NCBI RefSeq assembly: GCF_000526375.1
Contig: NZ_JAFY01000005.1
Location: forward strand, 310,001-374,000
Length of the DNA: 64,000 nucleotides
Reading direction: 5' to 3'
Source: Aminiphilus circumscriptus DSM 16581
GTDB lineage: Bacteria; Synergistota; Synergistia; Synergistales; Aminiphilaceae
The position numbers and the translations under genes are program-made. The notes under the pieces were generated by a model. The model was not told where the DNA came from. It searched no databases and was given only the letters and a program-made list of their open reading frames with translations. Shown in pieces: positions 6,606-19,047 of the stretch; the first letter of the stretch is position 1; each line of letters opens with the position of its first letter.

Positions 6606-9317
6606 CTACCCTTTTTGCACCCGTACCGCACTGATCTTGAACGCAGGCGTCTCCGAAGTGGGGTCTATAGCCGCCGCGGTGAGCGCGTTTGCCGGCGCTT
6701 CCCCGAAGTGGAACGGAACGAAGACCATTTTGGGCGGCACTTTCTCGGTGATTTTCGCCTTGCCGCGCACCTCACCCCGGCGGGAGGAGACGCACAGCAG
6801 CTCGCCTTCCCGAACGCCGATCTGTTCCGCATCGACGGGATTGATCTCGATGTGCAGTTCATCCACGAATTTTTCCGTGGCACTCCGTCCGGTCATGCTC
6901 CTCGTGTGGTAGTGATAGAGCAGGCGTCCCGTGCTTGCGAGGAAGGGATACTCCTCGTCGGGCCATTCATGGGGAGCCTTCCACTCGCAGGGGGAGAAGA
7001 ATCCCTTGCCGTTGGGACGGGCAAATTTTTCCGAATGGAGAATGGGGGTTCCGGGATGCTCCGCATTCGGGCAGGGCCAGCAGAGGGCGCCCTGCTCAAG
7101 GCGCGTGTAGTTCATCCCTGCGTAACTCGGAACGAAACGGGCAAGATCATCGAAGATCTCCGAGGCGGACGAGAAATTCCAGTCCGCACCGCATTTCTTC
7201 GCCAGGGCGACAAGAATCTCCCAGTCAGCCTTGGCTTCTCCCGGCGCGTTCACGGCCTTCCGTATCCTCTGGACGGCCCGCATGGTGTTGGTAAAGGTGC
7301 CGTCCTTCTCGGCCCAGCAGGCGGCGGGGAACACCACATCCGCGAGCTGTGCCGTCTCGGTGAGGAAAATGTCCTGCACAACGAGAAAATCGAGGGCCTC
7401 CAACGCATGCCGAACGTGGTTGGTGTCCGCGTCGCTCACCATAGGGTTCTCGCCCATCACGTAGAGGCTTTTCAGTTCTCCTTCTCCGGCGGCTTCGAGC
7501 ATCTTTACGAGACTCTTGCCAGGGCTGAGCGGAAGTTCGGCTCCCCATAGATTCTTGACCTTCTCACGCACCGCAGGGTCGGCTACTTTGGCGTATCCCG
7601 GAAGCACATTGGGAAGACAGCCCATGTCGCAGGCGCCCTGAACGTTGTTCTGACCCCTGAGGGGGTTCACACCCGTGCCGGGGCGCCCCAGATGGCCGCA
7701 GAGCATGGCAAGATTCGCCACGGAGCGGACGTTGTCCGTCCCCGTGGTGTGCTGGGTGATGCCCATGGTGTAGAAGATCGCCGAGTTGGGGCCCTTCGCG
7801 TAGAGTCGGGCCGCATTGACGATATCTTCCGGTGCGATGCCGGTGATCTCGCTCACCCGCTGTGGATCATAGGCCGCGACAAGCGCTTTCAGGGCTTCGA
7901 AATTCTCGGTTCGCTCTTCAACGAACGTTTTGTCGTAGAGATCTTCCTTGATGATCACGTGCATAAACCCGTTGAGCAGGGCAACGTCGCTGCCGCTGCG
8001 CTGACGAAGGTAGACGTCGGCATATTTCGCAAGCTCGATCTTCCTGGGATCGCAAACGATGAGTTTCTTCCCGTTTTGTTTGTTTTCTTTGATCCAAGAG
8101 CCGATGACAGGATGTGCTTCCGTGGTGTTCGAACCAATGACGAGCATCACATCCACCTCTTTGATGGAGGCGAAGTCGTTGGTCATTGCACCGCTTCCGA
8201 GGGTCTCGCCGAGACCCGCAACTGTGGCGCTGTGTCAGAGATGGGCACAGTGATCGACGTTGTGTGTGCCCACCACCTCCCTTGCCAACCGTTGGAAGAG
8301 ATAGTTCTCTTCGTTTGTGCACCGGGCGGAGGCGAAGAAGCCCAGCGCATCGGGACCATGGTGCTCCTTGATCTGGGCGAACTTATAGGCGACAAGGCCG
8401 AGCGCCTCATCCCAAGAGGCCTCGCGGAAGCTTCCGTTCTCGCGGATAAGAGGTTTGGTGAGACGGTCATCGCTGTGGACGAACTGCCAGGCGAAACGCC
8501 CCTTCACACAGCAGCGCCCCCCGTTGAGGGCGGACTTGCTGGAGTAGTCGGTGGTGATGTTGGCAATGCGGCCAGTGCGCTCGTTCACGGAAATGGTCAG
8601 CTCGCACCCCACACCGCAATAGGAGCAGATGGTCTTGACCTTCTTCAGTTCCCAGGGACGCCCCTGTCCGACCGAGGCTTTTTCGTAGAGAGCGCCCACG
8701 GGGCAGAGCTGCACACACTGACCGCAGAAGACGCAGTCCGAGTGCTCCAGATCCTTTCCGATGGGAGGATGCACCATGGTTTTCACGCCACGCTGCTGGA
8801 AATCAATGGCGTGGTAGCGTGCAAGCTCGTCGCAGGCACGGACACAGCGACCACAGAGAACACATTTGTCCATGTCCCGCACGTAGAAGGGGTTGGCATC
8901 TTCGAGGCGGTGTTCTCCCTTCTGGACATCCGTCTCCTCACGGAACCGGGACTCGGAAATACCAAGCTCATAGGCGATGTCCTGGAGTTCGCACTTGCCG
9001 TTGCTGGGACAGGAGAAGCAGTCCAGAGGATGCCGGACGAGGATGAGCTCCACCACCGCTCTTCGGGCCTCCTGCACCTTGGGGCTGCGAGAATGAATGA
9101 CCATTCCCTCCACGAGGGGCGTGGTGCATGCGGGCAGGAGTTTGGGATTCTTTTCCACCTCCACGAGACAGACCCGGCACGCACCGAAGGGGGTGATGGC
9201 GGGATGATCGCAGAGCGCCGGAATGTGAAGGCCGTTGTCCCGGGCAGCCTGAAGAATGGTCTGTCCAGGGCGGGCCGTGATCTCCCGGTTGTCGAGAATG
9301 GCTTTTATGGTCTGCAT
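6606..9317 (-). CDS. fdhA: Formate dehydrogenase catalytic subunit, selenocysteine-containing
   Basis: Molybdenum or tungsten bis-molybdopterin formate dehydrogenase of about 903 residues with a NuoG-type N-terminus. Cluster ligands appear in order: [2Fe-2S] (CDHPAITPFGACRVC, about 36-50), the HxxxCxxCxxxxxC site (about 97-110), two CxxCxxCxxxC ferredoxin motifs, and CSYCGVGC before the catalytic domain. An in-frame TGA at 8235-8237 (codon 361) falls at the active-site position, in the context NVDHCAHL-U-HSATVAGL, and is followed by a SECIS-like hairpin. It is therefore read as selenocysteine, not as a stop. The ATG at 9317 has AGGGAGG nine bases upstream. The frame is open on both sides of the TGA. 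It lies directly after an HndABC module, so electrons likely pass between formate, NAD(P)H and ferredoxin. Confidence 0.95.
8201..8234 (-). promoter_or_regulatory. SECIS element directing selenocysteine insertion
   Basis: Starting 17 nt after the UGA on the coding strand, GGGTCTC pairs with GAGACCC across a three-base loop (8201-8217). The GGUCU segment sits at the same distance as in the E. coli fdhF SECIS. Bacterial SECIS elements lie inside the coding sequence just after the UGA and bind SelB. Confidence 0.75.
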
Positions 9318-9337
9318 GACTCGCATCCTCCCTGTGT

Positions 9338-11137
9338 CTATCGCTTGGAGATGGCCTTCACGGGACAGGCCGCCTCACAGGCCCCGCACTTGATGCATTT
9401 TGCGGGATCGATCACGTGAGGTTTCTTCACCTCACCGGCGATGGCTCCGACGGGGCACATCCGGGCGCACTTGGTGCAACCGATGCACTTCGCTCCGTCG
9501 ATGACGTACTGGAGAAGACTCTGACACGCTCCGGCAGGGCACTTCTTGTCGAGAATATGGGCCTCGTACTCGTGCCGGAAATAACGCAGCGTGGTGAGCA
9601 CCGGATTCGGCGCAGTCTGCCCCAATCCGCAGAGAGACGCGTTCTTGATCTGGTTGCCGAGGTAAGCGAGATTGTCCATGTCCTCGGGCTTGCCCTTGCC
9701 TTCGGTAATACGAGTGAGAATGTCGAGCATCTTCTTCGTGCCCTCCCGGCAGGGAACGCACTTGCCGCAGGATTCCCGCTGGGTGAACTCCAGGAAGAAC
9801 TTGGCCACGTCCACCATGCAGGTCGCCTCGTCCATGACGACGAGGCCGCCCGATCCCATGATAGCCCCCGCCGCCGTGAGCGACTCGTAGTCCACGGGCG
9901 TGTCGAGATGCGCCTCGGTGAGGCAGCCGCCGGAGGGACCTCCGATCTGAACGGCCTTGAATTTCTTGTCGTTGATGATGCCGCCGCCGAGTTCAAAGAC
10001 CACCTCGCGGATGGTAATGCCCATGGGAACTTCGATGAGTCCCGTGTTCTTCACCTTTCCGGTGAGGGCGAAGACTTTGGTCCCCTTGGATTTCTCCGTG
10101 CCGATGGCGGCGTACCAGGCGCCACCGTTGCGGATGATGGCCGGAACGTTGGCCCAGGTCTCCACGTTGTTGATGTTCGAGGGTTTGCCCCAGAGTCCCT
10201 TGTTTGCCGGAAAGGGGGGACGGGGACGGGGCATGCCGCGCTCCCCTTCGATGGAGGCCATGAGCGCCGTCTCTTCGCCGCAGACGAACGCTCCCGCGCC
10301 TTCCTTCACATGGAGATGAAAAGAGAAGGACGTGTCGAGCACATTGTCCCCGAGAAGCCCCAACTCCTCAGCCTGTCGGATAGCTTCGTTCAAATGCTTG
10401 ATCGCCAGGGGATATTCGGCCCGGCAATAGATGTATCCCTCGTCGGCTCCCATGGCGTAGGCACCGAGCATCATCCCCTCGATGACCGCATGAGGGTCAC
10501 CCTCGAGGATGGAGCGGTCCATGAAAGCGCCGGGATCTCCCTCGTCGGCGTTACAGATGGTGTACTTTTTCGTTCCCGCCGCCTTGCGGCAGAACTCCCA
10601 CTTGAGTCCCGTGGGGAACCCGCCACCGCCGCGCCCGCGAAGGCCAGAGGTCTTCACTTCCTGGAGCACGTCCTCGGGGGACATTTCCTTGAGGGCTTTC
10701 GCCAGAGCCACGTATCCATCCCGGGCAATGTACTCCTCGATGTTGTTCGGATTGATGTAGCCGCAGTTCGCCAGGGCGATGCGGACTTGTTTGCTATAGA
10801 AGGGTATTTCCTTGTAGTGGGGTACACCTTGGGGCGTGACAGGCGTCTTGTAGAGAAGCCGCTGTACGAGACGTCCCTTGTAGAGGTGCTCCTCCACGAT
10901 TTCCGCCACATCCTCCGGCTCCACCCGACAGTAGAACGTCCCCTCGGGATACACCACCACGATGGGTCCCATCTCGCACATGCCATGGCAACCCGTCTCC
11001 ACGAGCTTGATTTCCCTGTCCATATTCCGTGCGGCCAGTTCTTCCTCAAAACGAGTCCGAACCGCACCGGCACCACTGGCTGTACAGCCAGTGCCGCCGC
11101 AAAGCAACACGTGACCTCTTGCGCGGTACTCCGCCAC
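9338..11137 (-). CDS. hndC: NuoF-like NADH-binding flavoprotein with ferredoxin domains (HndC type), formate dehydrogenase module
   Basis: 599-residue diaphorase subunit. Residues 1-95 are a thioredoxin-like [2Fe-2S] domain (C13, C18, C50, C54). Residues about 120-510 are the NuoF core: glycine-rich FMN/NADH loop GRGGGGFPTG at 168-177, the NADEGDPGAFMDR motif, and the [4Fe-4S] ligands ESCGKCVPC. The C-terminus carries two ferredoxin motifs (CIGCTKCARMC and CIKCGACEAAC). This architecture is that of electron-bifurcating HydB/HndC subunits. The start is GTG, 6 bp after an unusual run of eleven G. The stop is 20 bp before fdhA. Large parts are nearly identical at DNA level to the paralogue at 17207-19000. 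Confidence 0.9.
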   Translation of the reverse strand: MAEYRARGHVLLCGGTGCTASGAGAVRTRFEEELAARNMDREIKLVETGCHGMCEMGPIVVVYPEGTFYCRVEPEDVAEIVEEHLYKGRLVQRLLYKTPVTPQGVPHYKEIPFYSKQVRIALANCGYINPNNIEEYIARDGYVALAKALKEMSPEDVLQEVKTSGLRGRGGGGFPTGLKWEFCRKAAGTKKYTICNADEGDPGAFMDRSILEGDPHAVIEGMMLGAYAMGADEGYIYCRAEYPLAIKHLNEAIRQAEELGLLGDNVLDTSFSFHLHVKEGAGAFVCGEETALMASIEGERGMPRPRPPFPANKGLWGKPSNINNVETWANVPAIIRNGGAWYAAIGTEKSKGTKVFALTGKVKNTGLIEVPMGITIREVVFELGGGIINDKKFKAVQIGGPSGGCLTEAHLDTPVDYESLTAAGAIMGSGGLVVMDEATCMVDVAKFFLEFTQRESCGKCVPCREGTKKMLDILTRITEGKGKPEDMDNLAYLGNQIKNASLCGLGQTAPNPVLTTLRYFRHEYEAHILDKKCPAGACQSLLQYVIDGAKCIGCTKCARMCPVGAIAGEVKKPHVIDPAKCIKCGACEAACPVKAISKR

Positions 11138-11159
11138 CGCTCTCCCCCCCCCCCTGAAG

Positions 11160-11531
11160 TTATTCCGTACGCCCGATAACGCGATCCTCCACGATGTTGC
11201 CGTTCACCACATGTTCCGCAACAATGCGGGGAACGTCCGCAACAGTGAGCCGGCCGTAGGTGATACGAGGCTCTCCGGGGCGGATCACATCGAGAAGGGG
11301 CTCCTGCTGGCACATGCCGATGCACCCCGTGGTCTCCACGGAAACATCCTTGAGCCCCCGCTTCTCAAGTTCGACAAGCACGTTCTGCATGATCTCCCGC
11401 GCTCCTGCGGCGATACCGCAGGTCCCCATACCGATGATGATGCGGGTCTTTCCCTGGGAACGCGCCGCGGTGAGATCGCTCGCGTTCTCCTTGATCTTCC
11501 TCAGATCGTCCAGGCTCGTAATCTTGGGCAT
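11160..11531 (-). CDS. hndB: HndB-type small [2Fe-2S] ferredoxin subunit, formate dehydrogenase module
   Basis: Thioredoxin-like ferredoxin of 123 residues, like HndB of NADP-reducing hydrogenases. Three cysteines are visible (C38 in GTCGIAAGA, then C70 and C74 in TTGCIGMCQQEP). The fourth position of a classical [2Fe-2S] site is not Cys, in both copies here. It is followed by the RPGEPRITYG segment typical of the family. ATG 11531 with GGGGGAGA upstream is chosen over an earlier in-frame ATG. It is tightly packed: 16 bp after hndA and 22 bp before hndC. Confidence 0.85.
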   Translation of the reverse strand: MPKITSLDDLRKIKENASDLTAARSQGKTRIIIGMGTCGIAAGAREIMQNVLVELEKRGLKDVSVETTGCIGMCQQEPLLDVIRPGEPRITYGRLTVADVPRIVAEHVVNGNIVEDRVIGRTE

Positions 11532-11547
11532 AGTCTCTCCCCCAGAT

Positions 11548-12036
11548 CTAGGCGTAATTATCGAGAATGCGCACCGCATCCTCGGGCGTCAGACGACCGT
11601 GGGTCTCGTCGTCAACCATGAGCACCGGAGCAAGGCCGCACGCCCCCAGACAGGCCACGGGCTCCAGTGTGAAACGGAGATCCTCCGTGGTGCCGTTTTC
11701 CTCCACCTTGAGAACACCCTTGAGCTTCTCCATGATGGCCAGGCTCCCCCGCACGTGGCAAGCCGTACCGCGACAGACGCGAATGATGTGCCTTCCTCTG
11801 GGCTTCAGATGAAACTGGGCATAAAACGTACACACACCATAGATTTCCGCCAGGGGAACCAGCAACTCCTGTGAGACATATTCCAGCACATCTGCGGGAA
11901 GATACCCGCAGTGATGCTGGATGGCCTGAAGCAAGGGGATCAGAAACCCCTTCCTTCCCTTGAACGAGGCGACGATCTGTCGAACCCCCTCATCGACAGC
12001 CCCCGTTCCTGCAACCGCTGCAACCTGTGTTTCCAT
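11548..12036 (-). CDS. hndA: NuoE/HndA-type 24-kDa [2Fe-2S] subunit, formate dehydrogenase module
   Basis: Thioredoxin-like [2Fe-2S] electron-transfer subunit (162 residues) of NuoE/HndA type. Ligand cysteines are C88 and C93 in CRGTACHVRGS, and C129 and C133 in CLGACGLAP. The helical N-terminus with GYLPADVLEYVSQEL and YGVCTFYAQF is typical. It is the first gene of the formate dehydrogenase module. The AAAGG sequence abuts the ATG with almost no spacer, so initiation may be weak or the start slightly off. Unlike the paralogous module, no ATPase-fold gene follows it. Confidence 0.88.
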   Translation of the reverse strand: METQVAAVAGTGAVDEGVRQIVASFKGRKGFLIPLLQAIQHHCGYLPADVLEYVSQELLVPLAEIYGVCTFYAQFHLKPRGRHIIRVCRGTACHVRGSLAIMEKLKGVLKVEENGTTEDLRFTLEPVACLGACGLAPVLMVDDETHGRLTPEDAVRILDNYA

Positions 12037-17206: not shown

Positions 17207-19000
17207 TCAGCTCTTCGTCACCGCGGAGAAGGGACAGACATCGAAGCAGGAGCCGCACTTGATGCAGCGGTCCTGATCGATCACGTAGGGTGTCTGTCGA
17301 TCTCCGGCAATGCAGTTCACAGGGCACTTTTTCGCGCACAACCCGCATTTACGACATTTCTCCCTGTCGATGGCGTAGGTGATGAGTTTGGTACAGGCCA
17401 AGGCAGGGCATTTCCTGTCCCGGATGTGCGCCTCGTACTCGTGCCGGAAGTAGCGCAGCGTGGTGAGCACCGGATTCGGCGCGGTCTGGCCGAGTCCGCA
17501 GAGGGACATGTCCTTCACCATGTGAGCGAGTTCCTCCAGGGTAGCCAGGTCCTCCATCGTCCCCTCACCGGCGGTAATCTTCTCGAGGAGGAGGAGCATC
17601 TGTTTCGTTCCCTCTCTGCAGGGAACGCACTTGCCGCAGGATTCCCGCTGGGTGAACTCCAGAAAGAACTTGGCCACGTCCACCATGCAGGTCGCCTCGT
17701 CCATGACGACGAGTCCCCCCGACCCCATGATAGCCCCCGCCGCCGTGAGCGACTCGTAATCCACGGGAAGATCGAGGTGTTCCTCGGTGAGACAGCCGCC
17801 GGAGGGACCTCCGATCTGAACGGCCTTGAATTTCTTGTCGTTGATGATGCCGCCGCCGAGCTCGAAGACGATTTCACGAATGCTGATCCCCATGGGAACC
17901 TCGACCAAACCGGTGTGTTTCACTTTTCCGGTGAGGGCGAAAACTTTGGTCCCCTTGGATTTCTCCGTACCGATGGCGGCGTACCAGGCGCCGCCGTTGC
18001 GGATGATGGCCGGAACGTTGGCCCAGGTCTCCACGTTGTTGATGTTCGAGGGTTTGCCCCAGAGTCCCTTGTTTGCCGGAAAGGGGGGACGGGGACGGGG
18101 CATACCGCGCTCCCCTTCGATGGAGGCCATGAGCGCCGTCTCTTCGCCGCAGACGAAGGCTCCCGCACCTTCCTTCACGTGAAGATGGAAGGAGAAGGAC
18201 GTGTCCAGAATGCGCTCCCCCAGCAGGCCGTATTCCTCGGCCTGGCCGATGGCGCGATTGAGGCGCTTGATGGCAAGAGGGTATTCGGCCCGGCAATAGA
18301 TGTATCCCTCGTCGGCTCCCATGGCGTAGGCACCGAGCATCATCCCCTCGATGACCGCATGAGGGTCACCCTCGAGGATGGAGCGGTCCATGAAAGCGCC
18401 GGGATCTCCCTCGTCGGCGTTACAGATGGTGTACTTTTTCGTTCCCGCCGCCTTGCGGCAGAACTCCCACTTGAGTCCCGTGGGGAACCCACCGCCGCCG
18501 CGCCCGCGAAGGCCAGAGGTCTTCACTTCCTGGAGCACGTCCTCGGGGGACATTTCCTTCACGGCCTTGGCGAGAGCCTGATAGCCGTCCCGGGCGATAT
18601 ACTCCTCGATGTTGTCGGGATTGATGTAGCCGCAGTTGTGGAGCGCGATGCGCTCCTGCTTGCTGTAGAAGGGAATGTCCTTGTAGTGGGGAACCTTCTC
18701 GATGCTTCCGGAGAGGGCGTAGAGAAGTCGCTCCACGATGCGTCCCTTGTAGAGATGTTCCTCCACGATCTCCGTCACATCTTTTGGCTCCACCCGACAG
18801 TAGAACGTCCCCTCGGGGTAGACCACCACGATGGGTCCCATCTCGCACATGCCGTGACACCCCGTCTGGACCACCATGACCTCCCGGTCCAGCTTCCTCT
18901 TCGCCAATTCCTCTTTAAACGCGCTCATCACCTCGCGGGCGCCGCTCGAAACGCAGCCCGTCCCGCCACAGATGAGAACGTGCGCACGATACACTGCCAT
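17207..19000 (-). CDS. hndC: NuoF-like NADH-binding flavoprotein with ferredoxin domains (HndC type), hydrogenase module
   Basis: 597-residue paralogue of the protein at 9338-11137, with the same plan: N-terminal [2Fe-2S] thioredoxin-like domain (CGGTGC, then TGCHGMC), NuoF FMN/NADH core with GRGGGGFPTG and ESCGKCVPC, and two C-terminal ferredoxin motifs (CRKCGLCAKKC, CIKCGSCFDVC). Divergence is concentrated at the two ends and in the segment before the C-terminal ferredoxin. The middle is almost identical at DNA level, including silent sites. It would pass electrons between NADH, ferredoxin and the hydrogenase through the NuoG-like subunit. HndD/HydA-type Fe-only hydrogenase is replaced here by HoxYH. 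Confidence 0.9.
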   Translation of the reverse strand: MAVYRAHVLICGGTGCVSSGAREVMSAFKEELAKRKLDREVMVVQTGCHGMCEMGPIVVVYPEGTFYCRVEPKDVTEIVEEHLYKGRIVERLLYALSGSIEKVPHYKDIPFYSKQERIALHNCGYINPDNIEEYIARDGYQALAKAVKEMSPEDVLQEVKTSGLRGRGGGGFPTGLKWEFCRKAAGTKKYTICNADEGDPGAFMDRSILEGDPHAVIEGMMLGAYAMGADEGYIYCRAEYPLAIKRLNRAIGQAEEYGLLGERILDTSFSFHLHVKEGAGAFVCGEETALMASIEGERGMPRPRPPFPANKGLWGKPSNINNVETWANVPAIIRNGGAWYAAIGTEKSKGTKVFALTGKVKHTGLVEVPMGISIREIVFELGGGIINDKKFKAVQIGGPSGGCLTEEHLDLPVDYESLTAAGAIMGSGGLVVMDEATCMVDVAKFFLEFTQRESCGKCVPCREGTKQMLLLLEKITAGEGTMEDLATLEELAHMVKDMSLCGLGQTAPNPVLTTLRYFRHEYEAHIRDRKCPALACTKLITYAIDREKCRKCGLCAKKCPVNCIAGDRQTPYVIDQDRCIKCGSCFDVCPFSAVTKS

Positions 19001-19047
19001 GGTGTCAGCCCCCCTGCTCTACCCGATCGGGTATGGAAGAAACGGGT

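Follow-up and report, generated by a model that had tools for sequence, protein, structure and literature searches.

A run of eleven G before the start codon of an hndC-like gene in Aminiphilus circumscriptus is probably an ordinary but overlong Shine-Dalgarno site of doubtful length

Does a homopolymer of eleven G that lies directly before the start codon of an NADH-binding redox subunit switch the translation of that subunit, or is it an ordinary ribosome-binding site with too many G? The question is raised by a tract in the 64,000-nucleotide stretch of DNA analysed here (the window). A preliminary description had placed eleven G at 11144-11154, 6 bp before a GTG, and had taken them as the ribosome-binding site of hndC in a formate dehydrogenase module. 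Reading the sequence confirmed these coordinates, and the tract does lie where the Shine-Dalgarno site of an hndC/nuoF-like gene of that module is expected. The coding strand here is the minus strand, and its sequence across the junction is GAA TAA CTTCA, eleven G, AGAGCG and GTG GCG GAG TAC. The features of the module and of the tract are as follows.

6606..9326, minus strand: formate dehydrogenase alpha subunit with a NuoG-like N-terminus, downstream; TIGR01591 matches both halves
9338..11137, minus strand: hndC/nuoF-like NADH-binding flavoprotein subunit, GTG start, 599 aa; Pfam Complex1_51K, NADH_4Fe-4S and SLBB, and NuoF models
11138..11143, minus strand: spacer AGAGCG from the G tract to the start codon, 6 nt; read from the sequence
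11144..11154, minus strand: run of eleven G (G11), Shine-Dalgarno region of the hndC-like gene; sequence, 16S tail and pairing model
11160..11534, minus strand: hndB-like thioredoxin-fold 2Fe-2S protein; open reading frame, with homologues at the same place
11548..12036, minus strand: hndA/nuoE-like 2Fe-2S subunit, upstream; Pfam 2Fe-2S_thioredx, 1.8e-50
19009..19014, minus strand: run of six G (G6) before the second hndC-like copy, where its Shine-Dalgarno site is expected; read from the sequence

The start codon of the hndC-like gene is the GTG at 11137-11135 on the minus strand, and the orthologue in the nearest relative (G002, locus L048) likewise opens with GTGGCGGAATAC, which agrees with a GTG start here. 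The TAA of the upstream hndB-like gene, at 11162-11160, ends 22 nt ahead of this start and is separated from the G tract by five bases. Since the tract sits between a stop and a start codon, a change in its length shifts no reading frame. The 2Fe-2S matches of the hndB-like protein were weak and fell under the curated cut-offs. The formate dehydrogenase alpha gene contained one in-frame TGA in 907 codons (codon 364, 8235-8237, minus strand), which in the context HCAHL-U-HSATVAGL probably encodes selenocysteine. The second hndC-like copy in the window (17207-19000) is an 83% identical paralogue.

The 16S tail ended in ...CACCTCCTTTCT in all four full-length 16S copies of the genome, and the tract is complementary to the anti-Shine-Dalgarno bases of this 3' end. 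The spacing of 6 nt to a start supported by homology falls within the range of about 5-9 nt of Shine-Dalgarno sites. A run of about five to seven G pairs with the CCUCC of the 16S tail, one G-U pair included. Any five adjacent G could pair, and the register closest to the start would remain usable at every tract length. Because this register is always available, translation should hardly respond to slippage. Taking the sequence and the pairing model described below together, we consider it likely that the tract is an ordinary but overlong Shine-Dalgarno site, that its assembled length is doubtful, and that slippage in it would have almost no effect on translation. The eleven G of the assembly may have come from neutral growth of the homopolymer, from an over-call in the assembly, or from both. 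Across the genome, the pattern G5-N4..9-RTG had 1602 matches compared with 1056 for the reversed pattern, which made it 1.5 times commoner, an excess to which codon bias could contribute. Counting against this reading, a run of at least five G within 20 nt upstream was found in 2 of the 28 predicted genes of the window. This count, together with the lack of a G tract at the G002 junction, indicates that several Shine-Dalgarno forms are acceptable, a G run being one of them.

The same junction was then compared among relatives. Eighty loci were fetched and 76 were parsed; L050, L095, L111, L122 and L046 were unparsed, L044 duplicates L049, and three doubtful starts (L096, L118 and L121, with gaps of 233, 294 and 249 nt) were kept among the 76. 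A run of at least five G ending no more than 15 nt from the start was present at 16 of the 76 parsed junctions and at 10 of the 25 loci titled Synergist- or Thermovirga, which is consistent with a G5-G7 run being a common Shine-Dalgarno form at the hndB-hndC junction in this lineage. None of the 76 parsed loci had a run of more than seven G at the junction; the longest found elsewhere was G7, and the eleven G exceed all of them. The tract thus resembles a Shine-Dalgarno site (anti-Shine-Dalgarno CCUCC) in lying six bases before the start, in pairing with the genome's own 16S tail and in its G-rich form, which is common in relatives, while it differs in being a homopolymer of eleven, the longest among the surveyed junctions. 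At the closest orthologous junction (G002, L048) a T8 run and AAGGAGGAG stood instead of the G tract, and no G run longer than two occurred within 15 nt of the start. In the sister genome (G001) the hndC orthologue was found from residue 333 on only, at the end of contig C103, which breaks inside the gene, and the junction recovered there was that of the paralogue only.

A homopolymer of eleven G is long enough to slip, and the tract might accordingly be a true contingency locus, in which slipped-strand mispairing tunes or switches hndC translation. In the survey, a comparable tract was found at none of the 76 parsed loci and so showed no sign of being kept as a repeat among relatives, as is expected of a contingency locus, and the G002 orthologue has no such run near its start. 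Moreover, the hndC-like product is a redox subunit and not a surface structure. We consider phase variation at this site improbable.

The effect of tract length was evaluated with a model of ungapped pairing with the nine-base 16S tail plus a spacing penalty, written after a published functional form; the model covers pairing and spacing only. The predicted ensemble energy was -4.4 kcal/mol with 4 G, -7.7 with 5, -8.4 with 6 and -9.0 with 7, levelled off at about seven G, and was -9.2 kcal/mol from 9 to 16 G. At the assembled length of 11 G the model gave -8.7 kcal/mol, and -9.2 for the ensemble, and the AAGGAGGAG site of the G002 orthologue reached -8.9 kcal/mol in the same model. As the G bases beside the spacer stay put, adding or removing one or two G from eleven changes nothing in the model. 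The preliminary description had expected changes in length or spacing to alter the translation of hndC; folding aside, this is at odds with predicted pairing and spacing that hardly change between 7 and 16 G, and this flatness also speaks against a contingency switch. Neither the reading frame, by the position of the tract, nor the spacing of the ribosome-binding site, by the flat part of the model curve, would be altered by a change in length. When an 80-nt stretch was folded, the energies for 3-16 G lay between -16.6 and -19.8 kcal/mol and followed no clear trend; the stretch was of fixed length, so that its 5' end moved with the G count.

A change in the length of a leader tract can matter elsewhere, and this stands against a silent Shine-Dalgarno site as well as in favour of a tuning tract. 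In the espR leader of Mycobacterium tuberculosis, one additional G in the poly-G of the 5'UTR is reported to alter folding, according to the text of that paper, and translation, for which a figure legend names a translational reporter (PMC11898584). The two tracts are alike in being G homopolymers in an untranslated leader upstream of the start. They differ in that the espR tract lies at the leader's 5' end and works through folding, with reporter data, while the tract here is a predicted Shine-Dalgarno site (PMC11898584).

Then the rarity of such a run was estimated. The genome (G000; 3,223,212 bases in 7 contigs) contained 226 exact G/C runs of seven, 39 of eight, 5 of nine, none of ten and two of eleven. 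A geometric decay of run lengths predicts 0.17-0.21 runs of at least eleven genome-wide, compared with the two observed (P about 0.01-0.02). Markov models of order 1-6 predicted 0.02-0.18 such runs in the 64-kb window, the higher orders being fitted with the tract included. With the 0.18 runs per 64 kb of the first-order model scaled to the genome, two runs are unsurprising, and the window held 6 G8 matches where its dinucleotide shuffles averaged 9.18. The first-order model and the shuffles indicate that composition alone makes long G runs less rare than the run-length decay of the genome suggests. The excess of G11 runs in the genome is mild and rests on two tracts.

The assembled length itself may be questioned. 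If an indel-prone long-read assembly had added the eleventh G, and perhaps more, by consensus error, the real tract would be shorter and unremarkable. Complete rRNA operons lie inside the contigs of this seven-contig assembly, which suggests long reads. Contig C7 ends in a partial 16S copy (L165) that differed from an intact copy by 24 single-base insertions, 4 deletions and 3 mismatches, and 23 of the 24 insertions adjoined an identical base. This copy looks like uncorrected single-molecule long reads, and as a contig end it is a worst case and not representative of well-covered sequence. The signature of insertion in homopolymers is in the same assembly.

Two conserved genes were also out of frame exactly at G tracts. 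One is motA, which holds the genome's only other G11 (G000:C7:131594-131604; 1501-1511 of L007) and is out of frame as assembled, while in motA of the sister species (93% DNA identity) the tract is interrupted and shorter and the frame is open for 263 aa; MotA_ExbB was matched in both versions and MotA_N in that of the sister only. The gene for tRNA pseudouridine synthase D, truD, loses its frame at a G8 (L183, G000:C2:1332433-1332440), while the sister genome G001 has a shorter G run there and one open frame of 443 aa with both conserved stretches (Pfam TruD). Homopolymer indels thus occur elsewhere in this assembly, in 16S, truD and motA, the latter two being compatible with slippage too: their frame breaks may be either consensus error or real slippage. 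Over-calling explains both motA and truD, and real slippage explains motA as well but truD less naturally, which is a tRNA-modification gene without an obvious reason to switch.

Errors were not everywhere, however. In a codon-usage frame test of 46 tracts (7 of at least nine G and 39 of G8), which was too noisy to yield an error rate, both test windows placed nine in frame (L173, L174, L175, L177, L179, L182, L185, L198 and L200), so that at least nine other G8 tracts lie in frame by codon usage. Only truD was shifted in both test windows; the others were unclear or mixed, and motA was scored as 'edge/?'. The G9 tracts in L001, L003, L010 and L011 sit within long open frames. In addition, a study of MinION assemblies reported that errors after homopolymers were mostly deletions and not insertions (PMC12007338), which does not agree with simple over-calling on that platform. 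On this evidence an over-called tract is a substantial possibility, though short of an even chance.

Two further candidates for slipped genes were rejected. L207, shifted in one test window, looks like the place where two genes meet, and the G9 at C2:1245993 lies in a decayed gene, in a region with further indels and a larger deletion relative to G001. This decayed gene (L167, L209 and L210; G000:C2, about 1245100-1246130) adjoins a Fur-like gene, and we take it by eye to be ClC-type channel-like. Poly-G artefacts were also seen in relatives, at L214 (the start of contig C66 of G002), a G46 contig start, and at L217 (G032:C9, 158218-158265), where G19 and C tracts surround an N run.

The frame break of motA at the only other G11 may also be read in favour of slippage in the living cell, as may long G tracts in another genus of the order. 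In genus g5 of family f3 (Synergistales), several genomes (among them G036, G063 and G099; L220, L221 and L222) carry dozens of G11 matches. The three tracts that were opened lie in genes that, recognised by eye, are presumably fucosyltransferase-, glycosyltransferase- and FkbM- (methyltransferase-) like, and in two of them the frame is apparently broken at the tract. By their sequence, the poly-G tracts of g5 look like a real set of contingency genes. The tract at hndC shares with the poly-G/C contingency genes of Campylobacter jejuni a length of at least nine G, and it is unlike them in that the chosen C. jejuni genes reportedly switch by frameshift within the coding sequence (PMC13317227). 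A wider version of the slippage reading, in which both G11 tracts slip in vivo, motA switches by frameshift so that the strain happened to be sampled in an immotile state, and the length of the hndC leader drifts, appears highly improbable. The preliminary description had called the tract suggestive of phase-variable expression but perhaps neutral, or else an assembly artefact. Its suggestion of a switch found no supporting evidence, while its neutral and artefact alternatives agree better with the insertion signature and with the out-of-frame motA and truD.

A structural role was considered as well, in which the tract would fold as RNA or DNA, for instance into a two-layer G-quadruplex, and so regulate initiation. 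In principle eleven G suffice for four GG units and three loops of one base, though this is arithmetic only. The G5-G7 runs of relatives are too short to form a quadruplex alone, the ordinary Shine-Dalgarno reading suffices without one, and the present analyses lend it no support; we find this role scarcely credible.

Most likely, then, the tract is an ordinary ribosome-binding site whose homopolymer is too long and of doubtful length. Where the homopolymer itself serves as the Shine-Dalgarno site, slippage within it should be buffered, since the register closest to the start is preserved. Should both G11 tracts slip after all, formate and NADH metabolism would be graded among sister cells, in a lineage that otherwise links slippage with surface genes. 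These results call for caution, as homopolymers close to a start should not be read outright as switches. They are also relevant to annotators, since G tracts break conserved genes such as motA and truD in this assembly.
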